A DNA stretch of 21,183 nt. Origin: a virus. A program made the translations under genes and the position numbers. The first letter of the stretch is position 1; each line of letters begins with the position of its first letter. Of this stretch, positions 5,785 through 21,093 are shown in pieces. Under the pieces are notes generated by a model. That model did not search any database. It saw nothing but the letters and a program-made list of their open reading frames with translations, and had not been told where the DNA came from. The stretch covers positions 1 to 21,183 of the IMG/VR virus record IMGVR_UViG_3300042353_000221; one strand, 5' to 3'.

Positions 5785-6044
5785 CAGATCATCCTTGCGA
5801 GCAGTGGCACCGCCCCGCCGGCACACGTTGCCAGGGCATCAAACCATTCTACCCCGTGCGTGGGCGTCAAGCCTGCTCTGATAGCACGTTGGTTGGAGAG
5901 CCAGTCGAGCACCTCCTTGCCAACTGCGGCCAGCACTACGAGGCCATAGGCAGCGTCAGGGCGGCGCAGGACCACTAGGGCGGCTAGGAAGATCAGCGCG
6001 CCGTAGATGGCGTGGTTGGCCTTGTCGGCGGGCAGTTGAGGCAT
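5784..6044 (-). CDS. membrane protein resembling the YfiM/DUF2279 layout
   Basis: An 86-residue protein with the pattern DKANHAIYGAL, then GKEVLDW, then D-ALATCAGG, spread over two hydrophobic segments (about 12-25 and 33-45) and a weaker third. The conserved DKxxH...GKExxD...DxxxxxxGG arrangement is seen in YfiM-like predicted lipoproteins and in phage proteins, function unknown. I prefer ATG 6044 (TGATG with the upstream stop) to GTG 6047. Coupled by ATGA to the next gene; both could act at the envelope. Confidence 0.68.
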   Translation of the reverse strand: MPQLPADKANHAIYGALIFLAALVVLRRPDAAYGLVVLAAVGKEVLDWLSNQRAIRAGLTPTHGVEWFDALATCAGGAVPLLARMI

Positions 6045-7651: not shown

Positions 7652-8235
7652 TATGCGAACGCCTGGGCTGCGTTACCGTACCAGCTGGTGCCGATGTAGA
7701 CAAAGCTGAGAATGTCTTCTGCACTGGCTGTTGCCGTGATTGTTGGCACAGTGCCACCGGGCCATTTGACGCCGGTGAAGGTGGCCGTGGTCATGCCTGT
7801 TGCTGCTTGGGTCAAGCGAAGGATGAACGAATTGCCTGCTGTAGGGGAAGTCGGCATTGCGAACGTACAAGGCGTTGAGGCCGTCAGCGTAGCGGTGACA
7901 ACTGTGCCTGCCGTAATGACGATTGTTGCCGTGCCTGTAACCGTTCCCAGCGCAGCTACTGACTCAACGTAGCCCGAGATCGTGGGGGTTGTCAGCGTCG
8001 GTGATGTGCTCAGGACAACCGCCACGGTGCCAGTGCTTGAGGCCACTCCAGTCCCGCCACTAGCCACCGGCAACGCAGTGGTTAAGCTCAGGCTCAAAGC
8101 ACTCACAGCCCGCCCAGCGGTCAAGTTGGCCACCGAGACCTGCTTGGTGGTCGAGCTTTGGACAATCGGCAGAACCTCGGTGCCCGCTAGGGGCGTAGTA
8201 CTTGCCGGGAGGGCACTGATTTTTGAGTCAGCCAT
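7651..8235 (-). CDS. short tail-fibre-like virion protein
   Basis: A 194-residue protein starting MADSKISALPASTTPLAGTE, followed by VLPIVQSSTTKQVSVANL. This K-I-S-x-LP ... G-E-xLPI ... K-x-V-S-x-x-xL opening is typical of phage fibre and head-fibre proteins. A Thr/Ala/Val-rich beta region includes a GGTG turn (ASGGTGVASSTG). The C-terminus (ILSFVYIGTSWYGNA) is a common ending for trimeric fibre proteins. It has a ribosome-binding site (AAAGGA) before ATG 8235, and sits between tailspike and LamG-SPRY adhesin. The protein at 20143-20598 has the same N-terminal plan. A fibre or adaptor role is inferred. Confidence 0.72.
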   Translation of the reverse strand: MADSKISALPASTTPLAGTEVLPIVQSSTTKQVSVANLTAGRAVSALSLSLTTALPVASGGTGVASSTGTVAVVLSTSPTLTTPTISGYVESVAALGTVTGTATIVITAGTVVTATLTASTPCTFAMPTSPTAGNSFILRLTQAATGMTTATFTGVKWPGGTVPTITATASAEDILSFVYIGTSWYGNAAQAFA

Positions 8236-8253: not shown

Positions 8254-10857
8254 TTATGATACACGAACAGAGTTGATGCGAGCGTTGATGGCCGTCCCAG
8301 CCGTCTCCTGCAGCACAGACACTAGGCGCAACTCAATCCGGTCTGTAGCAGCAAGTGTTGCGCCTGTGACCGTAAACACATTGTCCGTTGCTGCGTTGGT
8401 CAATGTGATGGCTGCCGACCCCAGGTTAGACCCATGAGCGCCGGTTAAGTTGTTGATTCTGTACGCTGTGAGCGTAAGCGTTTTGGTGCCTGCTGTGCCT
8501 GCTCCGCTGTAGTAGGCATTGGCTGTAACGCTAAGATCGCGGCCCGAAAAGTACCCGTTGCCAGGCTGATATTCCCAGATGACGGTGGATGTAATAGTGG
8601 CGCTGAGTGCGTTGGCAGCGAGCAGGAACGTTGAAGTACCCGGCGTGTTGCTGATGCCAAAAGTAGTGGCCGAAGAGCTTGCTGTAGCCACAGACCCATC
8701 GGCGTTGCGAGCAGAGGTCAGCGCCAGATTGGAGGCCGGGGAGATGCCCGATGCAACTGGCTTGATTGCCCAAGTGTCAAGCACGTAGCCGGTTGTGCCG
8801 GTGTAGCCATAGACCCAAACGGATACAGGGCCGTTGGGGGCGGTGAACGTTGTGCTTGAGGTAGCACTTAGAACCCAAGTCCCGGTGGTTATGGTTGTTG
8901 ACCCGCCGTTGTATCCGTTGCGGATGTATAGGCCGCCAGCAGTGTTGCCGGTTGCGGCAGTGGCGAAAAATGTTACCTTGTACTCGGCCCCAGGGGTAAG
9001 GCCAGGGAGGTTGATGTAAACATCAGAGTTGTTAACTGGCGATCCCGTAAGGGTGATTACGCCAGCAACCGCTGTTACCGTTCCTGTATTGCCAGTAATG
9101 AGGCCAACGTTGTCATCGTTGTAGAAGTCATTTACAAACTTTTCCGAAACAGTGTCCATGCTGAGGAAGCCAGGAAGGACGCCTTCAAACAAGCCAACGC
9201 TGTCTAAATAGAATATTTCTCCAACATCCGACCCATCGGCAGCGCCAGCGTAGACGGTAACCGTAAGTTTTGTGTGCGTGAGAGGAATGGTAAGCGTAGA
9301 GATGACCCACTGCCATCCGCCATTGCACACGGCGCCACGGGGGTAGCTGGTAAAGCTAGACGAAGAGGTAACGTTATCCGTGGACGTAATGTCCAGGCGG
9401 CCCCCAAGCAAGCCAAGACCGGCCTGGGTCCAGACTCGCGCTATTGCGGTGACTGTTTTTCCCACCAAGTGCGGAATAGCAAGGCTTGCGTCGGTCGTAA
9501 TGACCGGACTTGCTCCAGCGCCAATTGTGATCTGCGCAGAGTACAGCGATCCATCGGTTACGCTGACATTCTTTGTGGGAACGCAATTGGTAAACGTCCA
9601 GCCGGAAGGGTTGCTGCCTGTGTCCCAGGTTATAAAACGAGGGTTGTAGATGTAATTGGTTGGCGTCTGCGAAAGCGGGTTGACGCCTTGCGGGCCAAAG
9701 TTCGTGTAGCGCGGAGGCTCGGCCATGACGCGCTGGACCTCTTCGCACCAGACTTGGCTGCCTAGGGCGCTTGGGTGTGTCTCGTCTGTGTATAGCGCTG
9801 CCGGGTCTGGGTACGTCTCAAATGCGGTGTATACATCGATGACGCCAGCACCGACCAGATCGGCAGTTTTGCGCCAGGCGCTTGTGAGCCGTGCGGACTG
9901 GTTTGCTCCGGCAACGCTAGTGCGTGGGTTTTGCAGCGTAATGAACAACCCGGCAAGCGGGGCCATTAGCCTGCAATGGCTGGCGGCAATCACCCATTCT
10001 GGCAGCGCCTCCACTTCAGTGGCGTTGGTGCCAATGTTGTGGCCGTAGTTGATGATGACCAGATCGTAATTAATCCCGGTCCAGATTAGGCTTTGCCGTC
10101 CTCCGTCCGTATAGAAGGTGTTGGTTCCGCTAACGCTGGCGTTGTCAATGAAGACTGTCTGCGCACCGCTGCCGGTGCTTATCGTAGTGTAGGCAGCCCA
10201 TCCCGTAGTATCGTCATACAGGCGGTACTTGATGGTGTGCGTGGTGAGCTCTGTGGCCAGCCATTGGGCGGTAAGGTACACCCATTCGGTGGTCTCATTT
10301 CCGGTAGAGTCGCCGGTGACAAACATGTAGACGTTTGCTTGATTGGCGCGAGACTTCGCCCAGAAGTGCTGCGCCTGTGCCTGCGCCTGGCGTAATTCTG
10401 CGGCCACCGTGTTCGCGGCAGAACTGTTCAGGTAATCGTACCCAACTTGCGCCGCCCCAGCGGATGAGTTTATTTCCTGCAGCTCAGAGCCTACCGTGTC
10501 AACCGGATATGTTTCTGTTGAAAAATAGGAAACATCCCCGGCATTGATGACAAATCCATACCTTGCCGTAGATTCTGATGCGCTATATACCGCACTCCCC
10601 TTGGCGTTTTGAACCAAGATGCTGTAATCGCTGTCCGCGTAAATTACTGCCGGCGTGCCTGAGTTGACAATGTAGCCGCCAGATGTGCGCAGTGGCTGCG
10701 CTGCTGTCTGCGTCAGCGCGGCGTCCCAATAGATGCTGATCGGGTTGGTCTGCGGCGCCAGATTGACCGTGCCGATCCAGATGTAGCCATTGTCCAGCGG
10801 CTGGCCCGCCGTATCGGTGAAGATTGGGTAGGCGGGTTGGATTGATAGTGCGGTCAT
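8254..10857 (-). CDS. tailspike: P22-type head-binding domain fused to SGNH esterase
   Basis: An 867-residue protein. Residues 1-105 are a P22 tailspike-type head-binding domain (IQPAYPIFTDTAGQPLDNGY, then IWIGTVN, IYWDAALTQTAAQPLRTSGG), which attaches the spike to the tail. Residues about 172-385 look like an SGNH hydrolase: GDS (182-184) with S184, an NYGHN block (270-274) and D358-ETH361. The family removes acyl groups, so this spike probably deacetylates host O-antigen or capsule. The C-terminal third holds beta modules, including a carbohydrate-binding-like segment from about 398 (NYIYNPRFITWDTGSNPSGW). Unlike P22, no beta-helix endorhamnosidase is evident. ATG 10857 has AGGAAAG upstream and abuts the previous stop. 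Confidence 0.88.
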   Translation of the reverse strand: MTALSIQPAYPIFTDTAGQPLDNGYIWIGTVNLAPQTNPISIYWDAALTQTAAQPLRTSGGYIVNSGTPAVIYADSDYSILVQNAKGSAVYSASESTARYGFVINAGDVSYFSTETYPVDTVGSELQEINSSAGAAQVGYDYLNSSAANTVAAELRQAQAQAQHFWAKSRANQANVYMFVTGDSTGNETTEWVYLTAQWLATELTTHTIKYRLYDDTTGWAAYTTISTGSGAQTVFIDNASVSGTNTFYTDGGRQSLIWTGINYDLVIINYGHNIGTNATEVEALPEWVIAASHCRLMAPLAGLFITLQNPRTSVAGANQSARLTSAWRKTADLVGAGVIDVYTAFETYPDPAALYTDETHPSALGSQVWCEEVQRVMAEPPRYTNFGPQGVNPLSQTPTNYIYNPRFITWDTGSNPSGWTFTNCVPTKNVSVTDGSLYSAQITIGAGASPVITTDASLAIPHLVGKTVTAIARVWTQAGLGLLGGRLDITSTDNVTSSSSFTSYPRGAVCNGGWQWVISTLTIPLTHTKLTVTVYAGAADGSDVGEIFYLDSVGLFEGVLPGFLSMDTVSEKFVNDFYNDDNVGLITGNTGTVTAVAGVITLTGSPVNNSDVYINLPGLTPGAEYKVTFFATAATGNTAGGLYIRNGYNGGSTTITTGTWVLSATSSTTFTAPNGPVSVWVYGYTGTTGYVLDTWAIKPVASGISPASNLALTSARNADGSVATASSSATTFGISNTPGTSTFLLAANALSATITSTVIWEYQPGNGYFSGRDLSVTANAYYSGAGTAGTKTLTLTAYRINNLTGAHGSNLGSAAITLTNAATDNVFTVTGATLAATDRIELRLVSVLQETAGTAINARINSVRVS

Positions 10858-13248
10858 TTATTGGCTTTCCTGGTCAAATTGGCGCTCAGTCTGGGCCGCA
10901 GTCTGCAGCCATTGAATTCTGGCATCCAATGTTTTCGGCAATTTGGCCGCGTCTGCAAATTTCTGGAAGGATTGTGACATGGCCGCACGACGAATGCTAG
11001 CAGCGCTTGGCGCGCCCCTGGTTGCGGCTTCGACCGCGAGCTTCTGAAAACCCTCATCAGCGAACAGCTTTCCGGCCGCCTTGAGAGCGTCCTTGTTGCC
11101 TTGTGTCATGGCAGTGGTTATCACGGATGTTGCTGCTGCCGCAACTGGGCCGCCCATTGCTGCTGCGCCAGTCACCAGGCCCTTGGCCAATGTGCTCTCC
11201 ATCACCTTGCCGATCAGGCTTTCGGCCTGCATGCCTTGCATCAGCGCCTGGTTCGCCTTGCCGGTGGTCAGGACGTTGGCCCTGGCATCGGTGACGCGCT
11301 TAGAGATTTCGTACAGATCACGCAGCACATTGGATGATCCCTCGCCGAGCGTGTCCACGATGGTCTTGTAGACGGGCGGGTTGGCGCGCAGCTTCGGGTA
11401 AATATCTGCAAACTCTGAGAATCCAAAGCCACCCTTTTCGGCGCCCCTGGCCGAGCGAGTGACGGACGCCAGCGCAGTAGCCACCGTCTCTTTGCGTAGG
11501 TCTTCAGGGACAGTCTTGAGTAGGCGGTTGAACTCTCCCGCATCGCCCTTGGCCGCGCCAGTGATGGCGGTACGCATCTTGTTGGCCAGACTGCCTTCAA
11601 TGTCCTGGCCAAACGCATTCACGATGCGCTTGCCGAGTGCTCGCTCTTTGGCATAGATCAGATTGGCTGCGCGAAGTTGCCGGCGTAGTTCCTCGCCGCC
11701 GATGTTGCCAACGTTCGTCAGTTGATCGTCAGCCAGTGCCGCATACAGGCGCTTGAGGTCCGCTTCGGCCATGCTGCCGTAAGGCGACTCCATCTTGTCA
11801 ATGGCTTTGCCAATCAGGGATTTTTCGCGCTTGAGCAGGCCATATGTCATGCCACCGCGCTCAATCATATTGGCCAGTTTTCGCTCTGCTGCCGACATGC
11901 CCTCTTCGGTTACCTCGGCTTTGACGGCGGCAAGGGTTGCTTGGAGCTTTGGCAGACTGACTGGCGATGTTTTTGGCACCACCTTATCGACCGCAATGTA
12001 AAGGTCGCCCGCTTCAGTATTAAGGTCTGAGCGCGTCTTGGTCAGCGAGTCTTTGATCTTCTGCGACACCACGCCTGGCGCAATTGTTCCTTCAATAAAC
12101 TGAGCATCAAACTGCTTGATTACATCGTCGGCCTTGTCCACGGCCTGCGTGACGGTGTTGCGCCAGGCGGCTTCGGCCTCGCTGCCTGCGGCGGATCGGG
12201 TCAGGCCTGCGGCTGCCCTGATCTGCGGGTTGTCGCTGAACACATCGGCAGGAAGCACAATGCCCAGGCGTTCGGCTGCCTCCTTGGCCGCCACGTTGAC
12301 TTGGGCAAGATCGGCCAGCCGATCGCGTGCGCCAGCCGAGCCGAAACCTGTGCCGGCAGCCTGCTTGACTAGTTTCCCGACTTCCTCTTCTGCAATGACG
12401 GATACGGTAGGCGCTGCGGCTGGAGTTACTGCCGGGGCCACCGCCTGGGCAACCGGGGCAACTGGCGGCACAGCCTCCGGCACCGCCGCAGGAATCTCCG
12501 GAGCCATCATGGGCTCAACGCGAACTGCTGGCGTCGGCATAGGGGTTGGAGCTCGGCCACCCGTAACGCTTTGCGCGCCTCTCCTGACCGCCTGTACAGC
12601 CGGAGGGATCACGCGCTGCAAAACCTGTCCTACTGGGCCGGTGCCTGCTGCAATACCTATTTCAGCAAGGTCTGTTAAACCAGTTCTGCCGCCAGTTGCT
12701 GCTTGACTTACCTCAATCGCTGCTTGAGTTGCGCCAGCGCCAACGATTGCGCCGGGGATGGTTGCCGCACGGCCTGCCGGTGTGAATGCTGCAAGCGCAG
12801 CCGCACCCCGAGGCACATCTTGCAAAGTTACCCCAGGTTCAATAACGTATTCTTTTCCGTCAGTAGGTGAGCGCATAAACACAGTTCCCTGTGCATCAAG
12901 GCGATACGTCAAGCCTGGGAAGTTGGCGGCAAAAATTTTAGCCCGCTCTTCTGAGCCAGCCATCAGCCCACCAAGTGCCGACTTCAACAAGCCAAAAGAC
13001 ATCTGATTGGTCTCTGGCATGTTGTAAATTGTGCGTTTTTCAGAAAGCGCCGCAGCCACTTCAGGTGATGAGGAGCGTCTTGATCCAGTGACCGATTCGG
13101 CCAGGCTTTCAAAAAACCCCATCTTAGGCTGTGATGCCGCCCACTGCTCTGGCGACATTGGGGCCGCTGCAGGCGCCGTAGGAGCGGGCGTAGAGGCCGC
13201 TGGCGCAGCCTGCTTGGTCTGAGATGCCAGCCATTCCTCTGGACTCAT
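10858..13248 (-). CDS. large DNA-ejection protein in the P22 gp16 position
   Basis: A 796-residue protein, last of the three ejection genes and directly upstream of the tailspike, as in P22 (gp16, about 609 residues). I infer a pilot protein that leaves the virion with the DNA and helps it cross the envelope. Layout: an N-terminal repeat (MSPEEWLASQ at 1-10, MSPEQWAASQ at 31-40), a Gly/Ala-rich hydrophobic stretch (about 145-195), a Pro/Ala linker (about 230-285), a long helical part, and a second Ala/Gly hydrophobic segment near 695-720 (LVTGAAAMGGPVAAAATSV). The direct sequence resemblance to gp16 is not provable by eye. ATG 13248 is chosen because it overlaps the upstream stop by ATGA. Confidence 0.75.
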   Translation of the reverse strand: MSPEEWLASQTKQAAPAASTPAPTAPAAAPMSPEQWAASQPKMGFFESLAESVTGSRRSSSPEVAAALSEKRTIYNMPETNQMSFGLLKSALGGLMAGSEERAKIFAANFPGLTYRLDAQGTVFMRSPTDGKEYVIEPGVTLQDVPRGAAALAAFTPAGRAATIPGAIVGAGATQAAIEVSQAATGGRTGLTDLAEIGIAAGTGPVGQVLQRVIPPAVQAVRRGAQSVTGGRAPTPMPTPAVRVEPMMAPEIPAAVPEAVPPVAPVAQAVAPAVTPAAAPTVSVIAEEEVGKLVKQAAGTGFGSAGARDRLADLAQVNVAAKEAAERLGIVLPADVFSDNPQIRAAAGLTRSAAGSEAEAAWRNTVTQAVDKADDVIKQFDAQFIEGTIAPGVVSQKIKDSLTKTRSDLNTEAGDLYIAVDKVVPKTSPVSLPKLQATLAAVKAEVTEEGMSAAERKLANMIERGGMTYGLLKREKSLIGKAIDKMESPYGSMAEADLKRLYAALADDQLTNVGNIGGEELRRQLRAANLIYAKERALGKRIVNAFGQDIEGSLANKMRTAITGAAKGDAGEFNRLLKTVPEDLRKETVATALASVTRSARGAEKGGFGFSEFADIYPKLRANPPVYKTIVDTLGEGSSNVLRDLYEISKRVTDARANVLTTGKANQALMQGMQAESLIGKVMESTLAKGLVTGAAAMGGPVAAAATSVITTAMTQGNKDALKAAGKLFADEGFQKLAVEAATRGAPSAASIRRAAMSQSFQKFADAAKLPKTLDARIQWLQTAAQTERQFDQESQ

Positions 13249-14651
13249 GGCGCCCCCACTGATTTTTTGTACTCGGCCCACTGCGCATCATTGAAGTTTG
13301 CGGGGCGCGTGTAATTCCGGCCGCCAACTATCACAATATTTGGATCGTTGGTTGCCGTTGTCTCAGGCCCGAACACGTTGTCAGGATTGAGCTTGTAGTT
13401 CTTGACCACCACGCCGAGCGCTTTCTTGTCATCGCCTGCCTTCTTCTGCGCTGAGTCTAGGTATTGCTTGGCAAGGTTGACGAATTCTTCTCGTTGTTTT
13501 GGCTGCAGGAACTGGCCGCTTTCTGCTTTCTTCAAACTGTTTTCAAGTCTTGTGTACAGGCCGGCAGTATCGCGGGCCGTTGCGAATTCAGTCTCACGCA
13601 CAACCGAACCGGGGTCGAGCATTTTCATGAATCCTGTGATTAGCGCAATGTCGCCTGGGCCTGTTTTTACTTTGGCGGATGATTCAATGTTTGAATAAGT
13701 AGTGCCAAGCTCGCCGTAAACCTTGGTGCGGGCTTGGAATTCCTTGCGTAGCTTTTCCTCTTGATCGAATGCTTTAGCTGGATCGGGGGTGCCGGCTTTG
13801 AGTGCCTCCAGTTCAAGCGCAATCTTTTGTGTTTCTCTGCCTAATTTATTGGTCTGAGCCAGCGCCGATCCGGTCTGAGCTTTTGTCAGGCCAAGGGCGG
13901 CGGCTTTGCTTGCAAGGTCCGCAACTGCGGTCTTTTCTGCAAACTTAGCATCTACCGCCGCTTTTTGTGCGTCCGCCATTGCTCTGGCCGCGTCAGCTGT
14001 TGCCTTTTCCGCTGCGTTGCCAGCAGTAGCCTGGGCCGTGGTTGCATCTGCTACGGCCTGGTCAGCCTTTGCCCTAGCCTCAATCACTTTAGATGGGGCC
14101 AAAGCCGCAGTCCTGCGCTCTTCCCTTACTTTTGTAATGCCCTCATACCAATCTTTTCCAAAAGCTGCAGTGCCAAGTAACTCAACATTATCAGCAGCTA
14201 TTTTAGGCGATATGTTTATTGTTTTTAACATATCTTGCCATGCAAGTTTTTGCTGCGGGTTTGTCTCTGCGTCTATGCGATTTTGCAAAATTGTTTTTGC
14301 AGTCTCTGGATTTTGCTCCAAGGAAACAAGCAATTGACCATAAAGACGCTTAGATGAATTCAACTGTTCATCATTCATATTTTTAGCAACAGCCTGCAAT
14401 GCGTCAAATTGCTGCTTATTGGCCCCAACTAGAAGAGGTTCAATATCAGAATAAGTGCGTTCTGCGGCCGGTTTCTTGAAAAAAGCATCAATCCCAGTTT
14501 GATAGGTTTTAGCTTTCTCACGCGCTTGCGTTTGCGCCTGCACCTCTGCACCAGCAGCGCCAAGTTTGAACCCGCCCAGTGCCGCCTCGAATGGGCTCTG
14601 CACGTCTATTGCGTAATTCATCGGCGGTTGGAATGGATTGATGCCTGCCAT
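13245..14651 (-). CDS. DNA-ejection protein in the P22 gp20 position
   Basis: A 468-residue protein, close to the length of P22 gp20 (471). An N-terminal helical part is followed by an alanine-rich coiled region (about 186-286, such as KADQAVADATTAQATAG). Next comes a segment GPGDIALITGFMKMLDPGS with VVRETEF (331-356), which I know as a recurrent motif of phage internal and ejection proteins. It probably enters the host envelope with gp7- and gp16-like partners. ATG 14651 has AAAGGAT five bases upstream. It is coupled to the next gene by ATGA. Assignment rests on motif, length and gene order. Confidence 0.8.
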   Translation of the reverse strand: MAGINPFQPPMNYAIDVQSPFEAALGGFKLGAAGAEVQAQTQAREKAKTYQTGIDAFFKKPAAERTYSDIEPLLVGANKQQFDALQAVAKNMNDEQLNSSKRLYGQLLVSLEQNPETAKTILQNRIDAETNPQQKLAWQDMLKTINISPKIAADNVELLGTAAFGKDWYEGITKVREERRTAALAPSKVIEARAKADQAVADATTAQATAGNAAEKATADAARAMADAQKAAVDAKFAEKTAVADLASKAAALGLTKAQTGSALAQTNKLGRETQKIALELEALKAGTPDPAKAFDQEEKLRKEFQARTKVYGELGTTYSNIESSAKVKTGPGDIALITGFMKMLDPGSVVRETEFATARDTAGLYTRLENSLKKAESGQFLQPKQREEFVNLAKQYLDSAQKKAGDDKKALGVVVKNYKLNPDNVFGPETTATNDPNIVIVGGRNYTRPANFNDAQWAEYKKSVGAP

Positions 14652-14661
14652 TTTTTATCCT

Positions 14662-15306
14662 TTAGAACCCAAAACCTGGCTTTTTGCCAGCGCCGATTTG
14701 AGCGCCGACAAACTGGCCTGGCAAGTTAAACAGTTGCCCATAGGCCTTGGCCTCGCCAAGGATGCCGCCAGCTTCTGCGGAGCCCTGCTGGCCGAGCAAG
14801 TTGGCAATGTTGGTGCCAGTCTCCATGCCGGCCGCTCCAACGCCAGCGGCGGAGGCTTGGCCCAGGTTTGTCATGCCGCCGAGTCGACCGTACTGCTGCT
14901 CAATCAGGTTGGACAGGAGTTGCGGCCTAAACTGACCTAATGCGCCCTGCAGATTGCCGCCGCGCAGCCCGCCGGTGGCCGATGCCTGCTGTAGCAGCGC
15001 GTTTTCGCCCTGCGCAGCCAGGGCCTTGAACGTCTCGCCACCGGTGAGCCTGGCAATAGCGGCCTGCTCTGCTTCCGGCCCTCTGAGGCCTAGCAATGTC
15101 TGCTGCTGCTCCAGTGCCGGAATGCCCGCTTCGGTGTACGGCTGCAGGAGTTTGCGCATCTCGTCAAACTGGCGGCGCTGCTCTTCAATGCCGGCCTGGG
15201 ATGCAGCGCCTTGAGCGGCGGCGGCGTCACCGGCTGCGCTAGCCTGCATCGAACTGCCGACCAGCTGGCTCCCCGCCACAATCATTCCGGTTACTGGATC
15301 AGGCAT
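14662..15306 (-). CDS. gp7: P22 gp7-like DNA-transfer (ejection) protein
   Basis: A 214-residue protein, close to P22 gp7 (229). It has the family's typical order: a Gly/Ala-rich start (MIVAGSQLVGSSMQASAAGD), PYTEAGIPALEQQQTLLGLRG (57-76), QGENALLQQASATGGLRGGN (99-118), then FRPQLLSNLIEQQYGRLGG. In P22, gp7 is ejected with the DNA and contributes to a channel across the periplasm. ATG 15306 lies inside the end of the upstream gene with an 8-base overlap; the gp20-slot gene follows directly. This is the most recognisable of the three ejection proteins. Confidence 0.86.
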   Translation of the reverse strand: MPDPVTGMIVAGSQLVGSSMQASAAGDAAAAQGAASQAGIEEQRRQFDEMRKLLQPYTEAGIPALEQQQTLLGLRGPEAEQAAIARLTGGETFKALAAQGENALLQQASATGGLRGGNLQGALGQFRPQLLSNLIEQQYGRLGGMTNLGQASAAGVGAAGMETGTNIANLLGQQGSAEAGGILGEAKAYGQLFNLPGQFVGAQIGAGKKPGFGF

Positions 15307-15748
15307 TGCCGAACTCCTTCATGTAATCTTCAAATTTCTCGCCGTACAGGTTCATGACAAGATGTGCGTTTTTGGTTGCGAAGCCCGAGCCATGCGATAG
15401 CGTAACAGCCATCAGGATCAGATCATAGTACCCGGCTCGCCAGATGAAAGATTTTGCATCCGCATGCCCGCTGCGCTCGGCGCTGTCTGATGCCTGCCAC
15501 TTCAAGACCGAGACCGCAAGCATTGGCACCAGGTGGTGCGAGTTGGCGGCAAAGAATTGGTTCTGCGGCATGCCTACGAAAACGTTCCAGATGGTGGCGT
15601 TCAGGTCTTTGCGCTTGACCGCATCGCCGTCTGCAATGTCATCAAAAACTTGGATGGCGTCATAGACCATCACCAGCCACTCGATGGCTGGCTCTGGCAA
15701 GATAAAAACCTTGCGCAGGTTTTCTATGAGCCATTCGGAGTGGGTCAC
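15299..15748 (-). CDS. conserved virion-module protein in the P22 gp14 position
   Basis: A 149-residue helical protein (P22 gp14 has 153). Visible features are a start THSEWLIENLRKVFILPEPA, an acidic FDDIADGDAVKR segment and aromatic-rich helices (FIWRAGYYDLILMA). Proteins of this appearance often precede gp7-type ejection genes in podovirus genomes. P22 gp14 is needed for head assembly or ejection, but similarity to gp14 itself cannot be shown by eye. I chose GTG 15748, four bases after the upstream stop and preceded by GGAAG; the longer frame starts at GTG 15775 inside the upstream gene. Either start is possible. Confidence 0.7.
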   Translation of the reverse strand: MTHSEWLIENLRKVFILPEPAIEWLVMVYDAIQVFDDIADGDAVKRKDLNATIWNVFVGMPQNQFFAANSHHLVPMLAVSVLKWQASDSAERSGHADAKSFIWRAGYYDLILMAVTLSHGSGFATKNAHLVMNLYGEKFEDYMKEFGNA

Positions 15749-15752
15749 AACG

Positions 15753-16154
15753 TCAATCTTCCATCTCAAATTCACGCTCGTCCCAGGCCTGGCAGACGCG
15801 CAGATCGTGGCAGATGAACTCGAACTTGTTGCAGTAGCCTCGGAACCCGGCCTCGGTGTCCCAGTCGTTGCGAGGGATGCGCTCCATTTTAGCCTGCGTC
15901 ATGGTGCTGTTGTCGTAGTACTCGCAGTTCGAGCACCGGCGGCGGCGAGCCTCCTTCTCGTCAACCTGCATGGCTTTGCCAACAGCGACCCAATAGACCT
16001 TGTTGGCCGTTGGCTCGTTGGATGGGTTCTCAGGGCCGAGCATCCAGTCCTCGATGACGGTATCGGTGTTCTTCTTGTTCTCCGCCGTGCTGATGAACTC
16101 CTCGCCCATCGGCAGGCCTGCAAAGCCCTTGGGGATGACCATAAATTCCTTCAT
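15753..16154 (-). CDS. cysteine-rich phage protein, possible iron-sulfur or zinc site
   Basis: A 133-residue protein. Following a conserved-looking N-terminus (MKEFMVIPKGFAGLPMGEEF), the C-terminal half carries C74-x2-C77-EYY, then GYC108-NKFEF-x-C115-x5-C121-x2-W124. The GYCxxF and terminal CxxW steps recall the cluster ligands of HiPIP-type proteins, but a zinc fold is equally possible. ATG 16154 has AAAGGAT upstream; the frame could extend to 16232 but without a ribosome-binding site. It is the first gene after the HNH insertion. Function in the virion or cell is unknown. Confidence 0.72.
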   Translation of the reverse strand: MKEFMVIPKGFAGLPMGEEFISTAENKKNTDTVIEDWMLGPENPSNEPTANKVYWVAVGKAMQVDEKEARRRRCSNCEYYDNSTMTQAKMERIPRNDWDTEAGFRGYCNKFEFICHDLRVCQAWDEREFEMED

Positions 16155-16267
16155 GTTGCGATCCTTTGCTGTAAAATTGACTGGCAGCTTACCCGACGGG
16201 GGACAGGCGGTTTCATCCACCGCTTGCTGCAACTTTCAGGATGTTTTTCACTTTGATGAGGTGCAAC
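16155..16267. promoter_or_regulatory. divergent intergenic region beside the HNH gene
   Basis: A 113-base gap between the divergent starts at 16154 (minus) and 16268 (plus), the longest non-coding gap in the window. It contains a hairpin-forming repeat at 16205-16225 (AGGCGGT, 7-base loop, ACCGCTT, one G-T pair) and ribosome-binding sites on each side. I see no convincing -35/-10 pair on either strand, so a promoter is inferred only from gene orientation. Confidence 0.35.
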
Positions 16268-16744
16268 ATGCCTACACAAGCGCGAATCCACGAGCTTCTT
16301 TCCTACGATCCTGAGACTGGCATTATGACGCGACGCGTTAATAAAGGCCATGTTAAAGCCGGTCAAGTTGCAGGAAACCCAACTCGCGGCTACTTGCAAT
16401 TGATGATTGATGGTCATATGACTTTCGTTCATCGTTTTATTTGGCTTTACGTTTATGGCAAATGGCCTGATGGAAATATTGACCATATAGACGGAAACAG
16501 ATCAAACAATCGACTTTCTAACTTGCGTGATGTTTCGCAAGCAATGAACATTCAAAATCAAAGAAAACCAAAAATCAATAACAAATCTGGGTTTCTTGGC
16601 GTCAAGGCTAACCGGGGGCTTTGGAAGGCTGAGATAAGCGTCCACGGAAAAACCAAGTTTCTCGGACGGTTTAAAACACCCGAGGAAGCGCATCAGGTTT
16701 ACCTTGAGGCGAAGCGCAGATTGCATCCTGGCTGCACCATTTAG
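16268..16744 (+). CDS. HNH homing endonuclease with C-terminal AP2-like domain
   Basis: A 158-residue free-standing homing endonuclease. The HNH core is H55-R, then YGKWPDG with NIDHIDGN (D72-H73), NNR (N80-N81) and NLRD (N85-R87), with N94 in a following helix. An AP2-like DNA-binding domain follows (NKSGFLGVKANRGLWKAEIS, then GRFKTPEEAHQVYLEAKRR). Such genes cut alleles lacking them and spread by repair. ATG 16268 has GAGG six bases upstream. It is the only plus-strand gene in the structural arm and ends with a 4-base convergent overlap with the next gene. It is AT-rich, with 21 of 60 G+C at 16501-16560, consistent with acquisition. Confidence 0.92.
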   Translation: MPTQARIHELLSYDPETGIMTRRVNKGHVKAGQVAGNPTRGYLQLMIDGHMTFVHRFIWLYVYGKWPDGNIDHIDGNRSNNRLSNLRDVSQAMNIQNQRKPKINNKSGFLGVKANRGLWKAEISVHGKTKFLGRFKTPEEAHQVYLEAKRRLHPGCTI

Positions 16745-17079
16745 GACGTAATTTCGCGGCCTGACACGCGCAGCGTGAGCGCCGTGGCGTTGCTAGCGAT
16801 CGTGCTAATAAATGCACCGGCGTCCAACTCTTGGCCGACCAACTCCGGGCACAGGTAGGTCTCGCCTGGCACCACGGCTCGGTCATCAATAATCAGGTTG
16901 GCATTGCCTGCGCTGCCGCCGGACTGCACCAGGTTAACGCTGAATGTTCGGTTCGCCGTGTCGGTGTTGGTCACCGTGGCCTTGTCGATCAGCGCCTTGA
17001 CAGAGTTTGCCGTGTACTGCGTTGTTTGCGAGGCCTCCATCTGCTTGGGGGCCACTAGGGTTTTGACAATTACGGTCAT
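16741..17079 (-). CDS. small virion-type protein, beta-rich
   Basis: A 112-residue protein: VKTLVAPKQMEASQTTQYTA, helical SVKALIDKATVTNTD, then beta segments with LIIDDRAVVPGETYLCPELVG and a terminal ALTLRVSGREITS. This arrangement (NLI...RxxxPGExYxCPELVG) is common in small phage structural-region proteins that look like virion decoration or tail components. It overlaps the upstream gene by ATGA. Its TAA lies within the last codons of the opposing HNH gene, so the HNH insertion may have supplied or trimmed its end. Exact role unknown. Confidence 0.72.
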   Translation of the reverse strand: MTVIVKTLVAPKQMEASQTTQYTANSVKALIDKATVTNTDTANRTFSVNLVQSGGSAGNANLIIDDRAVVPGETYLCPELVGQELDAGAFISTIASNATALTLRVSGREITS

Positions 17080-17873
17080 TGGACACCTTCGATGTTGTTG
17101 TTGACTGTAAGAATTATGGACGGGATGCCGGGATGCGGTACGGCGGCAGGGAATGTCTTCAGCTCAACACTCAAGTCAGTGACCGAGAACATTAGCTCAA
17201 CATAATCGCTGGCCTTGAGGTCAAAAAAGTAATTCAGCGATGAGAAAATCTCAGCATTGTTACCTTGAATTGTTATTCTGCTGGCGCTGTTTGCCACATC
17301 AGCGCCATTTAAGCGAAACCAGAAATCAAAAACCGCTGTGCCGCCGCTTGTTTTGTCTAGCTGAAACGAGGTGTCAAAATTGTAGATGCCCTCGCTGTCC
17401 ACAATGATGCGCGAGGTGGGCGAGCCGATATACACGCCATTGCTCAGGTCGGTGCCGTTGAACGTGATCGCCTTGGCCGTGTTGATGACCGTTGCTGTTT
17501 GCGTGGTGGTGTCGTAGAAGGAGCCGTACCTTGATCGCTTGAACTCTCTGGCCGGCGGTGCCATCTGCAGCCCTTCGACCGAAGCCGCCAGGCTCCCGAG
17601 CATGGCCATGGCTTGATTGGCCTTGTTCTCGGCCAGCGCGGCATTGATGGCCGATTCTTGCGCCAGTGAGGAGATCATGGACAGCGCTTGCACGGCGGTG
17701 GTCTGAGCAATGCCGGCTGCAATGTTGACCTCCAGCACGCCATCAGGCCCGATGGCATCAACGGCCGCAAACAGCATTTCGAACTGTCTGATCTGCTGCT
17801 GATCGGTCAAAAACTGCGCGAGTTGATCCCGCGTCAGATTGAGCTTCCGAGAGTTCGGAGCGGTGGTTGCCAT
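17076..17873 (-). CDS. candidate tail-needle or knob protein (helical stalk plus jelly-roll-like domain)
   Basis: A 265-residue protein in the slot that holds the gp26 tail needle in P22 (after gp10). Residues about 14-105 are helical and alanine-rich (LTRDQLAQFLTDQQQIRQFE, then ALAENKANQAMAMLGSLAAS). From about 115 a beta domain follows (RYGSFYDTTTQTATVINTAK, GVYIGS, GIYNFDTSFQLDKTSGG, FWFRLNGADV), resembling TNF/C1q-like jelly rolls found in phage fibres. Sf6 has a knob of this general type on its needle. The needle role is inferred; an external fibre is an alternative. Starts at ATG 17873, just after the gp10 stop; GAGGCG upstream. Confidence 0.72.
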   Translation of the reverse strand: MATTAPNSRKLNLTRDQLAQFLTDQQQIRQFEMLFAAVDAIGPDGVLEVNIAAGIAQTTAVQALSMISSLAQESAINAALAENKANQAMAMLGSLAASVEGLQMAPPAREFKRSRYGSFYDTTTQTATVINTAKAITFNGTDLSNGVYIGSPTSRIIVDSEGIYNFDTSFQLDKTSGGTAVFDFWFRLNGADVANSASRITIQGNNAEIFSSLNYFFDLKASDYVELMFSVTDLSVELKTFPAAVPHPGIPSIILTVNNNIEGVQ

Positions 17874-17876
17874 GGA

Positions 17877-19391
17877 TTAGAACGCCAGCGCCTCTAGCTG
17901 GGCCTCGAGCCTGGCAAATGACACGTGGGCGCTACTGTCGCCCCTGAAGCGCTGGATGCGCCAGTTGCGCATGTGGCCTTGCTGAAACCATGCCAGGCGC
18001 TTCTTGGTGTCTCCTGCTGTGCCGACTGAGATGAACCTGTCCTGGCTCCATGATCTGCCGTCCAGCGAGTAGCTTGTGCTGATCTGCGGGTTTCCGAGTG
18101 CCGCTGAGTTTAAGACGGCGAGCTCGAGCAGGATGTATTCGCCATTCTCTTGCAGCAAAAAGAACCCGTTTTCTTGGAGCAAGCCGTTGACCACCTGCGT
18201 GGCCAGGGCAACGCTTCCCGTCAATGCCACCAGTTCTAGCTTGTTGAAGATGGCGCCATTGCTCTCGGCGTAGACGATGAGCGTACCGAATTCCCAGCGC
18301 ACCTGTTGGCCCCAGTGGTGGCCGGTGTCCTGCACGAGATACCCGATGGCGCTGGACTGCGGATCGCCGACCAGCCACTTGTTGTAGCACCAGACGATGT
18401 TCCTGGCCCGGTACTGCGCGATGCCGGTGGTGGTGCTGGCTAGAACAAACCAGACCTGTTCCTGCAACTCTCGCGAGGCCGATGCGTCGTAGACCAGCGT
18501 CTGGTCTGGCAGGTGTACGTACAGGTGTTCGTGAGCCTTGTCGTTCCTGGCCTCCAGCTTTACACCACTCAACTGGTCTTCGGTGTACTGCAGCAGAATG
18601 TTGTCGATCTCCTGAGTGCTGACCTTTGTTGTCGTTGCGGAGACGCCAAGATAGATGCCGGGTGCCTCGTTCCGCCCGCCGCCAAGGAAGGCCATTGCAT
18701 CAACAAAAACGCAGCAGGCCTGAGTGCCGATGCAACCCTTTTGAATCTGAGCGCCTTCGATCCTTGCGAACGGGAAGAGATCGCCGCCCACGTTGTTGAA
18801 GACCTCAATGGTGTGCCGATTGAGAGCGTAGACCTCGTTGCGGAGCTTGAGCAGCGCCAGTATTGGGTCGGGGTCTGCTTCGCTTGACCCGTACTTCAGC
18901 GGGTTAACGGCAAATGGATCGTTTAGCTCTGTGACGATCAGATACTGGCCATCGGTGGTCATGAAGTAGCCATCGACCCAACAGAAGTCGATCACGAAGC
19001 CCAGGTCCGGGTCTGTGACTTGCAGCAACCCTGCAGTGCTGTTCCAGTAGTACAGGCGGCCACCGGATGCGACCGCCAGGCTGGTGAAGCTGTAGTCAAA
19101 GGTCACTAGGTTGGTGGTTGGCCCGCCAACGTCGCCAAGGACGGTTACCGCGCCGCTGCTTGAGACAGAGACCAGCTTGGTGCCCATGACCCGGTAGCAG
19201 ATGTTGTTCCACTCGATGCCGCCACGGTCAACGCCTGGGCCTGTCCCATTGGAGACAATGCCATCACCTGGGCGAAGGAAGCCGTTGCTGATGCCGCTGA
19301 CCTTTGGCACGGGCACCAGATTGACGGGGTAGCTGGTGCGGATCTCCGGCGTGCCGTCAGTGTAAATTCCGTTCAGGATTGGAATTTGCAT
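17877..19391 (-). CDS. gp10: P22 gp10-like packaged-DNA stabilisation protein
   Basis: A 504-residue tail hub protein (P22 gp10 has 472). In P22 it forms a hexameric plug below the gp4 ring and holds packaged DNA. Visible family segments are QIPILNGIYTDGTPEIRTSY (2-21), ELNDPFAVNPLKYGSSEADPD (155-175), ALNRHTIEVFNN (189-200) and SYSLDGRSWSQDRF near the end (440-453). Residues about 404-423 hold two LLQENG units that look inserted relative to the usual core. ATG 19391 follows the upstream TAA by three bases; the ribosome-binding site is weak (GGTAAG). Confidence 0.88.
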   Translation of the reverse strand: MQIPILNGIYTDGTPEIRTSYPVNLVPVPKVSGISNGFLRPGDGIVSNGTGPGVDRGGIEWNNICYRVMGTKLVSVSSSGAVTVLGDVGGPTTNLVTFDYSFTSLAVASGGRLYYWNSTAGLLQVTDPDLGFVIDFCWVDGYFMTTDGQYLIVTELNDPFAVNPLKYGSSEADPDPILALLKLRNEVYALNRHTIEVFNNVGGDLFPFARIEGAQIQKGCIGTQACCVFVDAMAFLGGGRNEAPGIYLGVSATTTKVSTQEIDNILLQYTEDQLSGVKLEARNDKAHEHLYVHLPDQTLVYDASASRELQEQVWFVLASTTTGIAQYRARNIVWCYNKWLVGDPQSSAIGYLVQDTGHHWGQQVRWEFGTLIVYAESNGAIFNKLELVALTGSVALATQVVNGLLQENGFFLLQENGEYILLELAVLNSAALGNPQISTSYSLDGRSWSQDRFISVGTAGDTKKRLAWFQQGHMRNWRIQRFRGDSSAHVSFARLEAQLEALAF

Positions 19392-19394
19392 GGC

Positions 19395-19679
19395 TTACCA
19401 CTTGACCTTATCGGCCCAATACGCTGCGCTCATCTTGCCCTTGGAGATGTTCCCGGCGTGCCTGGCCTTGAATGACTCTCGGCGAGCCTGGGACGCCTTG
19501 GACTCGCCCTCCATCTTCGGCGACCCGGAGACGCCTTGCTGCCCGAAGCGGATGGTCTTTACTTGGTCGCCGGCCTTGGCTACGACGACATGGCTTTTTG
19601 TCGGGTGCGATGGCGTGCGCTTGGGCTTGTTGTAGCCCTCGACGCCAGCCCGATCCAGTCTTGAGTCTTTGGCGCCCAT
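19395..19679 (-). CDS. basic conserved phage protein of unknown function
   Basis: A 94-residue, strongly basic protein. Motifs: AGVEGYNKPKRTPSHPTKSH, KTIRFGQQGVSG, ARRESFKARHAGNISKGKMS and an aromatic end AAYWADKVKW. This set looks conserved as a unit in phage structural regions, but I know no function. The high Lys/Arg content could suit contact with packaged DNA or a negatively charged surface. ATG 19679 starts six bases after the 44-residue gene. Ribosome-binding site weak (AGGG). Confidence 0.72.
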   Translation of the reverse strand: MGAKDSRLDRAGVEGYNKPKRTPSHPTKSHVVVAKAGDQVKTIRFGQQGVSGSPKMEGESKASQARRESFKARHAGNISKGKMSAAYWADKVKW

Positions 19680-19685
19680 GATGCC

Positions 19686-19820
19686 CTAGTCAAGCAAAAT
19701 ATACGCGCCATCCTCTTGCAGCAGGAAGAACCCATCCTCCTGCAGCAGCGCTCCGGCAACTGGGCCGCCACCGATATTCCAGAATCGAATACGGAAGCGC
19801 AGCCGAGTCAGCGGGTACAT
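19686..19820 (-). CDS. 44-residue protein with LLQEDG repeat
   Basis: A short gene from ATG 19820, two bases after the upstream stop, to TAG at 19686-19688. The N-terminus is basic and aromatic (MYPLTRLRFRIRFWNIGGG). The end carries LLQEDG twice, then AYILLD (residues 25-44). The same 20-residue unit occurs in the gp10 homologue at 18123-18182, matching at 16 of 20 residues. Position between two clear genes with near-zero spacing and this shared motif support it as real. Function unknown; a small beta structure that associates with the tail is one possibility. Confidence 0.7.
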   Translation of the reverse strand: MYPLTRLRFRIRFWNIGGGPVAGALLQEDGFFLLQEDGAYILLD

Positions 19821-19821
19821 C

Positions 19822-20124
19822 TCAGAAGCCCTCGCCGGGCATGACGTGCAGGGACGTGCCGGCTGCGGAGATGTACGCCATTAGGCTGTAATCGCCGGGC
19901 TTGGTGATGGTTACCTGCGCGCCTCCCGGCACCGGGTAATCTGCCGTGGTTGCGACCACCGGGGCGGTTTCGCCGAAGCGGATGTAGCAGACATTTGCGC
20001 CGAGGTTGGTCAGGCAGACGGTCTGCGTGGCGCCGGTAACCGTTGCGGTGGCCGATGCCGCTCCTGGGGACACGATGACGCCACGGTTGTAGCCTGGCGA
20101 AAATGGGGCTGAGTTGTAAGGCAT
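19822..20124 (-). CDS. small beta-rich virion protein
   Basis: A 100-residue beta protein. It begins MPYNSAPFSPGYNRGVIVS and continues with TQTVCLTNLGANVCYIRFGE, DYPVPGGAQVTITKPGD and a terminal SLHVMPGEGF. This looks like small phage decoration or fibre-base proteins with a TNLG...YIRxG core and a PGEGF end. AGGAG lies eight bases before ATG 20124. It stands between gp4 and gp10 homologues, where P22 has no extra gene. Virion location is inferred. Confidence 0.72.
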   Translation of the reverse strand: MPYNSAPFSPGYNRGVIVSPGAASATATVTGATQTVCLTNLGANVCYIRFGETAPVVATTADYPVPGGAQVTITKPGDYSLMAYISAAGTSLHVMPGEGF

Positions 20125-20142
20125 TGGGTTCGCTCCTGAAGA

Positions 20143-20598
20143 TTAGCCGATGCGATACCAAGAGTTGGTCGCTTGGTAAAAACGCATGGTGAAGAACGCA
20201 TTAGCGGCCAGGGTGGTCGGCGCTCCGAATGCCGCAGCAGCTCCGTTGAGCGCCAACGTGAATGCCGTGATGATCTGCGTGGTGGTCACCAGCAACTGCG
20301 TCCCGTCTGGCGTGCCGGTATTGAGCGGGAGCGTGATCGTGCCGGTGGCCAGCGTGCCGGCTGGCTGCAGCAACATCCACTGCTGCTCGCTGACCGGCGT
20401 CGGCACGGTGATGTTGAACCCGGCGCCTGGGGTGTAGAGGTTCGTGGAGACGGTTGGCGCTGCGAATACGGTCTGAAAATACGCCAGCAGTTGACTGACA
20501 GAGACCTTGCGAGCATCGCCGTTGTTCGGGACGTAGATCGGCAGAAGATCGCCGCCGGATATCTGACTGAGGCCTGCTAGTTGATTGATCGTCGGCAT
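20143..20598 (-). CDS. fibre-like virion protein (head or collar fibre candidate)
   Basis: A 151-residue protein starting MPTINQLAGLSQISGGDLLP, followed by IYVPNNGDARKVSVSQLLAYF. This is the same N-terminal plan as the protein at 7651-8235 (I-x-x-L ... G-xxLPI ... K-VSV-x-L). The rest is beta-rich and ends FFTMRFYQATNSWYRIG, again like a fibre terminus. GAGG lies six bases before ATG 20598. Its position beside gp4 suggests attachment at the head-tail junction, but that is inference. Confidence 0.7.
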   Translation of the reverse strand: MPTINQLAGLSQISGGDLLPIYVPNNGDARKVSVSQLLAYFQTVFAAPTVSTNLYTPGAGFNITVPTPVSEQQWMLLQPAGTLATGTITLPLNTGTPDGTQLLVTTTQIITAFTLALNGAAAAFGAPTTLAANAFFTMRFYQATNSWYRIG

Positions 20599-20610
20599 GT
20601 GTGGCCTCTT

Positions 20611-21093
20611 TCAGGTGTATTCGAGCGGGCCGTCCTGGCCGGCCAGGGTTGGGTAGACAGGCTGCGCCAGGAATGGATTGTCGTAGACCCTCCAAGGCTT
20701 GTTGCCCGCTCCAGATGGCATGGTTCCTGGCATCTGCTGCTCAATCGGCATGGCGGCCCTGGACAGGAGGGTATTGTACGTCTCCTTGGCTGTCATCTTG
20801 GTGTCGGGCATGACCTGCTTGCCGTAACTTGGGGCCAGCTTGATGCCGAGATTGGTGTAGATCGCTTCGTTGGATGAATCCGGGACGTTGGTCTGCTCGT
20901 CCAGATCGCTATCCTGCGGGCTCGATGGGAGCGGGTAGCCCAAGCGGATGCCGAGTGCATTCCACGATGCAATCATGGTATCGAGTCGGCGCAGAGCGCT
21001 GTCGAGTTGCTCCGGCGTGAGATCAAAGACGTAGGACGCCAGCCCGATTTCCTCGAAGGCCTGCGTTACGAACTGGCGCTTGGTCCATCCCAT
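20611..21093 (-). CDS. gp4: P22 gp4-like head-completion / tail accessory factor
   Basis: A 160-residue protein, close to P22 gp4 (166), with the family's N-terminal helix MGWTKRQFVTQAFEEIGLAS, then LDSALRRLDTMIASWNALGI, GYPLPSS and a region AIYTNLGIKLAPSYGKQV. In P22, gp4 forms a ring below the portal after packaging and allows gp10 and the tailspike to join. AGGAG lies eight bases before ATG 21093. Its place upstream of the gp10 homologue matches P22. Confidence is high because these motifs are specific. Confidence 0.9.
   Translation of the reverse strand: MGWTKRQFVTQAFEEIGLASYVFDLTPEQLDSALRRLDTMIASWNALGIRLGYPLPSSPQDSDLDEQTNVPDSSNEAIYTNLGIKLAPSYGKQVMPDTKMTAKETYNTLLSRAAMPIEQQMPGTMPSGAGNKPWRVYDNPFLAQPVYPTLAGQDGPLEYT

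Follow-up and report, generated by a model that had tools for sequence, protein, structure and literature searches.

A gene directly behind the tail-nozzle gene of many environmental phages distantly related to P22 most likely encodes a tail needle

In the short-tailed phages P22, Sf6 and SU10, the gene that directly follows the nozzle gene is the one for the tail needle. An IMG/VR virus record of 21,183 bases (IMGVR_UViG_3300042353_000221; this whole stretch is referred to as the window) raises the question of what occupies this slot in more distant phages: directly behind its gp10 homologue lies a gene for a 265-residue protein (17076-17873, minus strand), which itself has no Pfam or PHROGs match, those to BclA_C and C1q included. 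A preliminary description of the window had proposed that it is a needle in which a helical stalk bears a jelly-roll knob. We find that 17076-17873 is a real, conserved gene and that its product is probably the tail needle of a short-tailed phage of the P22 type, where it would serve as central plug and probe; this is the best reading of the gene, although membership in the needle family of P22, gp26, was not supported. The features on which the argument turns are the following.

17877-19391, minus strand: gp10 homologue (packaged-DNA stabilisation protein, nozzle), 504 residues; PF11134 2.7e-35, phrog_578 4.6e-98, PDB gp10 chains
17076-17873, minus strand: needle-slot protein, 265 residues, with N-terminal anchor, helical stalk and C1q/TNF-like knob
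17736-17843, minus strand: anchor, residues 11-46, consensus LTRDQLAxFLxDxxQIRQFExLF, directly after gp10 in the relatives examined
17565-17747, minus strand: stalk helix predicted by AlphaFold2, residues 43-103 (61 residues); many relatives differ by a 25-residue unit
17088-17540, minus strand: knob, residues 112-262, C1q/TNF-type jelly roll from the AlphaFold2 model and structure comparison

The identity of the upstream gene is secure. Window gp10 matches three solved gp10 sequences among PDB sequences with expectation values (E) of 1.7e-31 to 4.9e-28, a fourth match being a 'stabilization protein' (2.9e-6), and it aligns with P22 gp10 in hhalign with a probability of 99.9 (E 8.3e-31, 422 columns, 30% identity), using a profile built without the P22 and Sf6 sequences.

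We scanned IMG/VR with the whole needle-slot protein, with its anchor and with gp10, keeping the best 80 loci of 588, 196 and 435 matching stretches, respectively; several matching stretches may share one contig, and the scans overlap in some contigs, so these counts are not independent. The anchor motif is kept even where the remainder of the protein differs. In the anchor-only scan, gp10 is directly upstream in 80/80 loci, 77 of them by the picked start of the open reading frame (ORF) and three (L198, L207 and L237) after correcting an over-long start, which by arithmetic places the beginning of the anchor at most 11 bases from the gp10 stop. The whole-protein scan gives an anchor ORF in all 80 loci and gp10 directly upstream in all 78 that are evaluable (77, and L042 after start correction; L001 and L064 are too near the contig edge), a linkage that is less surprising because these loci were selected by the whole protein. 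Starting from the gp10 of MW202475, 79 of the 80 loci were examined as new, the 80th, L259, carrying the anchor behind gp10; an anchor ORF is directly downstream in 75 of the 79, or 75 of the 76 evaluable, the remainder being three contigs that end within 110 bases and L302, whose N-terminus resembles a diverged anchor unmatched by the profile. For L306, L320 and L340 among the 75 positives, the ORF start as picked falls far within gp10. This tight gene linkage suggests that the N-terminal ~40 residues fasten the protein to the gp10 nozzle.

The same arrangement is found outside IMG/VR. In a collection of 50,697 phage records, the anchor rises above chance only in MW202867 and MW202475, complete circular records from Manatee Spring whose anchors (51% between the two) both lie directly behind gp10. 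The needle-slot protein of MW202867 bears an extra fibre module ahead of its C1q domain, and that of MW202475 (520 residues) has a fibre-like remainder with no C1q match. In MW202475, the interval from gp10 to the ejection protein contains no annotated gene other than that of the anchored protein, which supports a needle.

The predicted fold agrees with the helix-plus-beta protein first described. The AlphaFold2 monomer of the window protein, computed with 61 relatives, has a mean predicted local distance difference test score (pLDDT) of 85.4, with helices at residues 15-21, 25-40 and 43-103 followed by a jelly roll at residues 116-258 (block pLDDT 87-98). When the knob model was compared with known structures, the 50 matches listed were mostly C1q/TNF-type folds with Z of 16.5 to 13.6, among them BxpB (16.5), F-BclA (16.1), the C1q domain of Caprin-2 (15.4), the phi812 central-spike knob (9eul, 14.9) and chain 9k09_A of the cyanophage A4 portal-tail complex (14.5). 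These C1q/TNF-type jelly rolls (BclA, BxpB, C1q, 9eul and 9k09_A) share the fold modelled for residues 112-262 (Z 14.1 to 16.5), whereas their sequence identity to the window knob is only 9-16%. By profile, BclA_C is matched by 30 of the 62 family members at E 0.01 in Pfam (best 2e-4) and C1q by one; sequence searches of the PDB gave a best E of 0.21 for the window protein and 0.23 for the 62-member profile, which we took as chance. The knob would be C1q/TNF-like in general: the specific link to the Sf6 knob that had been drawn finds no support in the sequences, which show no similarity. That Sf6 and HS1 knob entries are missing from the 50 structure matches listed does not count against such a link.

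The stalk belongs to a series of lengths. Distinct stalks, 116 in number, fall into classes of 77 residues (the window type, 26 stalks), 102 (the largest, 32), 74 (9) and 124 (1), with classes of 226 (3) and 251 (8) in the type bearing the extra fibre module; classes joined by 25- or 50-residue steps comprise 79 of the 116. Stalks of 98 and 117 residues (5 and 1) differ by a 19-residue unit, and 31 fit neither 25- nor 19-residue steps, three of these (0, 27 and 44) being misplaced domain borders. Self-similarity is highest between positions 25 residues apart for stalks of 77, 102 and 124 residues (mean z 2.8, 5.0 and 10.5, with a single sequence behind the last value), and 19 residues apart for those of 98 and 117. 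In the 102 class, a 7-7-11 pattern (25 residues: three heptads and a four-residue step), chosen after the data were seen, gives a core mean hydropathy of 2.46 versus at most 2.27 in 2000 shuffles (0/2000 reach it), 1.61 for a strict heptad and 0.83 for a hendecad. For the long-stalk relative L203, AlphaFold2 predicts helices at residues 41-95 and 99-146, with a pLDDT of 76.4 overall and lower in the stalk. That the helical part is much shorter than in P22 had been noted as a difficulty. It is a weak one, since the window stalk is among the shorter ones of this series and relatives have longer stalks: the window helix has 61 residues, versus 11 heptads for the P22 and Sf6 needles and 16 for that of HS1 in passages of PMC3741392, and the family shaft often shifts by 25 residues.

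Beyond the shaft, the tips are exchanged. In the anchor-only scan, the C1q profile is found in 50 of 69 intact anchor ORFs; the longest ORF has 1036 residues and the shortest, probably frameshifted, 106. Some tips are a module known from the tail fibres of other phages. Peptidase_S74 tips occur in L346 and L297 (2 of 10 scanned non-C1q or fibre-like members), L297 adding an endosialidase-type stretch; L209 and L341 carry a cement-like module, below the Pfam cutoff, and the tips of L194, L200 and L201 have a stretch in common with a 151-residue gene that the window carries between gp4 and gp10. Over residues 1-95, the proteins of L215, L209 and L345 share 79-85% identity, and their total lengths are 430, 337 and 137 residues; L215 and L209 are again similar further along (36% identity over 194 residues). 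C1q and S74 tips suggest trimers. At the other extreme, L202/L295 (108 residues, one contig) and L304 (122 residues) consist of the anchor and a helical rod with no tip, and such members point to a plug or needle rather than a side fibre. The 106-residue ORF of L226 was rejected as a tipless member, as it resembles a frameshifted copy, and so were L329, L343, L345, L347 and L351 (136-138 residues), where a short C-terminal piece follows the stalk.

How does this architecture compare with known needles? The P22 and Sf6/HS1 needle gp26 (phrog_1219, phrog_1030) is likewise encoded directly behind gp10 and, as described in part of PMC3741392, likewise has a base, a helical shaft of variable length and an exchangeable tip, a TNF-like knob in Sf6/HS1; the window shaft is shorter. 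The Kuravirus SU10 needle gp18, also encoded directly behind the nozzle gene, combines a coiled coil with a C-terminal beta domain according to passages of PMC9509320, although its tip is a beta prism where the window has a predicted C1q fold, and no sequence similarity is detectable. This shared slot behind the nozzle gene argues for a needle, as does the tailspike of the window, which carries a gp9-like base of its own.

Several observations weigh against a needle. In hhalign, the anchor, stalk and knob of the window protein and its relatives show no similarity to the P22 and Sf6 needles (probabilities 0.07-0.3; 0.2 for the anchor versus gp26), the profile comparison suggested in the preliminary description giving a negative answer, and the anchor family shows none to SU10 gp18. 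The model is least certain at the presumed attachment site, with pLDDT of just 56-69 over residues 11-50. Long fibre-like tips (738 and 1036 residues; S74; endosialidase-type) are borne by several relatives and are more usual for side fibres. The stalk regularity is incomplete: 37 of the 116 distinct stalks lie outside the classes joined by 25-residue steps, self-similarity in the 74 class peaks at 22 and then at 25, the Fourier periodicity is marginal, being reached by 17/500 shuffles in both classes, and the 7-7-11 pattern was picked post hoc. Finally, the C1q domain and the anchor can part company, with gp10 followed by a C1q protein without detectable anchor in L276 and L277 and by a C1q protein with another N-terminus in MW202462, MW202710 and MW202481 (L170, L171 and L172). 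Across the seven loci of the genome scan, L278 and L281 have the anchor behind gp10, L276 and L277 have gp10 followed by C1q without a detectable anchor and three have neither arrangement; the gp10-anchor linkage ends in more distant phages. On a sequence reading, the C1q domain of L170, L171 and L172 is seemingly set within another beta domain.

The lack of similarity to gp26 is weak counter-evidence. Whereas the positive control, P22 versus Sf6 needle, gives a probability of 100 (E 2e-38), the control of P22 gp26 versus SU10 gp18 fails too (probability 1.5), so that needles, the SU10 one having been seen by cryo-electron microscopy, can diverge past such tests. Note that Sf6 relatives from IMG/VR were 97-99% identical and therefore of no use as a profile. 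With no detectable similarity to gp26, the window protein is best treated as equivalent in function to the needle of P22 and Sf6, not as a demonstrated member of its family.

A version of the needle reading, compatible with it, would nevertheless make the protein a true, highly diverged gp26 homologue with another knob, instead of a separate needle lineage. Its slot behind a homologous gp10 (30% identity), its base, helical shaft and exchangeable tip (as for P22/Sf6 in passages of PMC3741392) and the failed mutual sequence test of the SU10 and P22 needles would all be consistent with this. However, the anchor has no hhalign similarity to gp26, whereas P22 and Sf6 recognise each other readily, and the 15 PHROGs families matched at E 0.01 by the 62 members include no needle family; we consider such deep homology rather unlikely.

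A side fibre is also unlikely. Here, trimers would sit round the gp10 nozzle for receptor binding, and the channel would be closed by gp10 itself or by another protein. The long fibre-like tips and the S74 and endosialidase-type C-termini that occur on the same anchor as the C1q knobs speak for it, as do the short fibres of SU10, which bind the nozzle (PMC9509320, in part), and the C1q-domain proteins of marine phages, proposed in 2014 as receptor-binding proteins (passages of PMC3909814). Yet tipless rods of 108 and 122 residues make little sense as fibres, the tailspike already possesses a gp9-like base, and in P22, Sf6 and SU10 this slot belongs to the needle. It is very improbable that the protein is a capsid or head-decoration fibre, C1q-tipped and near the tail genes only by chance: in Acinetobacter phage phiAC-1 a protein with the shared fibre module and a C1q domain is indeed encoded directly after an annotated capsid gene, where the surrounding annotations include baseplate proteins but nothing gp10-like, but the family is defined by the anchor, not by the C1q domain, and the anchor is tightly linked to gp10.

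A needle in this slot could also be undercut by a separate needle gene elsewhere, a prospect raised in the preliminary description. We searched 15 records with a P22 needle profile (the window record, contigs of 10 relatives, MW202867, MW202475, P22 and Sf6). It matches the positive controls P22 and Sf6 and gives no match in 12 of the 15 records (the window, the 10 contigs, most of which may be fragments, and MW202867). MW202475 has one weak match (E 2.8e-4) inside an ORF annotated zapB, which counts against the needle reading; the same search also matched 3 of 14 control genomes. A knob profile matches only P22 and Sf6 among the 15 records, and 1 of the 14 control genomes. As alternative needles within the window, the two genes of 112 and 159 residues that follow the needle slot were compared with gp26, and neither shows similarity.

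Taken as a needle, the protein may work as follows. Fixed to the nozzle by its anchor, it would project a ~60-residue helix as the shaft, probably a parallel trimeric coiled coil, with the predicted C1q/TNF-type jelly roll as distal knob. It would have a central location in the virion, sealing the gp10 channel so that the packaged DNA is retained; P22 particles without gp26 are reported to package DNA but leak it (PMC3741392, in part). After the tailspikes have seated the phage, the knob would make contact with the outer membrane, and the channel would open to the ejection proteins and DNA when the needle is released, as described for P22 (PMC3741392, in part) and SU10 (PMC9509320, in part). 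Within the lineage, the base is conserved, shafts often differ by a helical unit of 25 residues and tips are exchanged between phages.

The remaining genes of the head-to-tail region place the needle slot in context. The stretch 8254-21093 reads as a minus-strand operon interrupted by one plus-strand gene.

20611-21093, minus strand: gp4 homologue (head-tail adaptor), 160 residues; PF11650 5.4e-13, phrog_637 1.4e-30
20143-20598, minus strand: 151-residue protein in the gp4-gp10 interval; its profile matches the needle-slot proteins L194, L200 and L201 and other long ORFs of relatives
19822-20124, minus strand: small protein of 100 residues, present in some relatives
19395-19679, minus strand: 94-residue protein, phrog_7595 (function unknown)
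16741-17079, minus strand: 112-residue protein directly after the needle slot, its start overlapping the needle stop
16241-16744, plus strand: HNH endonuclease gene, not at this site in L006, L007 and L012
15753-16232, minus strand: 159-residue protein, function unknown, conserved among relatives
15299-15775, minus strand: gp14-slot protein, 158 residues as listed; phrog_21390
14662-15306, minus strand: gp7 homologue (ejection protein), 214 residues; PF25688 2e-9, phrog_598 1.3e-36
13245-14651, minus strand: gp20-slot protein, 468 residues
10858-13281, minus strand: gp16-slot protein, 807 residues, distant gp16 similarity
8254-10857, minus strand: tailspike, 867 residues, with gp9-like N-terminus and GDSL/SGNH-type domain

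The ORFs are present with the strand and roughly the lengths first described, and the gp4, gp10 and gp7 assignments, based on Pfam and PHROGs, are firm. The proposed retention of the P22 gene order stands in part: gp4, gp10, gp7 and, more weakly, gp16 homologues run in that order (gp16 slot: phrog_770 7.5e-12; hhalign versus P22 gp16 probability 94.1, E 1.3e-7, 359 columns), whereas the gp14 and gp20 slots are assigned by position only (hhalign probability 0.1 each versus P22 gp14 and gp20, i.e. no detectable homology; no Pfam match for the gp14 slot at E 0.01). The series is broken by six additional genes, those of 151, 100 and 94 residues between gp4 and gp10, and the 112-residue, plus-strand HNH and 159-residue genes between the needle and gp14 slots. 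Lengths differ from those of P22 for gp16 (807 versus 609 residues) and for the tailspike (867 versus 667), and the 149 residues once given for the gp14-slot protein would require an internal start. The proposed head-binding part of the tailspike may correspond to a gp9-like N-terminal stretch (hhalign versus P22 gp9 probability 76.9, E 2.1e-5, 30% identity over 86 columns); it has no Pfam head-binding match at E 0.01.

Several neighbouring genes deserve mention in their own right. The HNH gene points against the operon, and its insertion looks recent, since in L006, L007 and L012 the two flanks (91.5-97.1% identical) directly or almost directly adjoin each other. The 112-residue gene is present in nearly all relatives whose contigs extend that far, and its type occurs in two tandem copies in L209, L212, L217, L226, L227, L241 and L251. 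In relatives, ORFs matching the profile of the 151-residue gene are ~110 to >600 residues long, and portions of three needle-slot proteins are among them; this family is perhaps another appendage with exchangeable ends. Residues 215-368 of the tailspike match the GDSL/SGNH lipase-type domain PF13472 (2.3e-7, 31.9 bits for a cutoff of 32.9), which suggests an esterase spike. Downstream of the tailspike, at 6044-7651 (minus strand), a 535-residue protein with laminin-G and SPRY domains is perhaps another adhesin. In L304, a relative whose needle is a rod only, the protein in the gp14 slot (7252-7710) belongs to DUF2824 (PF11039, 5.6e-6), as does P22 gp14. It also matches GNAT acetyltransferases weakly, below the cutoff, which hints at a possible GNAT-like nature of P22 gp14.

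Tail fibres are well known to combine a conserved N-terminus with an exchanged C-terminus (PMC10386132, in part). Among the open-licence papers listed in a literature search, none dealt with the anchor family. As far as these searches show, three features are new: a needle-slot base linked to gp10, stalk steps of 25 residues and the breadth of the tips. We tentatively put these together as a modular needle cartridge in a widespread environmental P22-type lineage, an interpretation that falls somewhat short of being probable: a base unrelated to gp26 would sit on a homologous gp10, one needle lineage having displaced the other; 25-residue shaft units would be gained and lost; tips would alternate between C1q knobs, fibres with an enzyme or a chaperone, other modules and no tip at all; and the needle would double as a major receptor-binding fibre. 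The gene right behind the tail-nozzle gene in many environmental phages distant from P22 most likely encodes the tail needle, and its anchor motif would let this gene be named in many such phages where it is now 'hypothetical'. This natural series, with one conserved base, stepwise shafts and many tips including none, would allow shaft length and tip type to be compared with ejection and with the host envelope.

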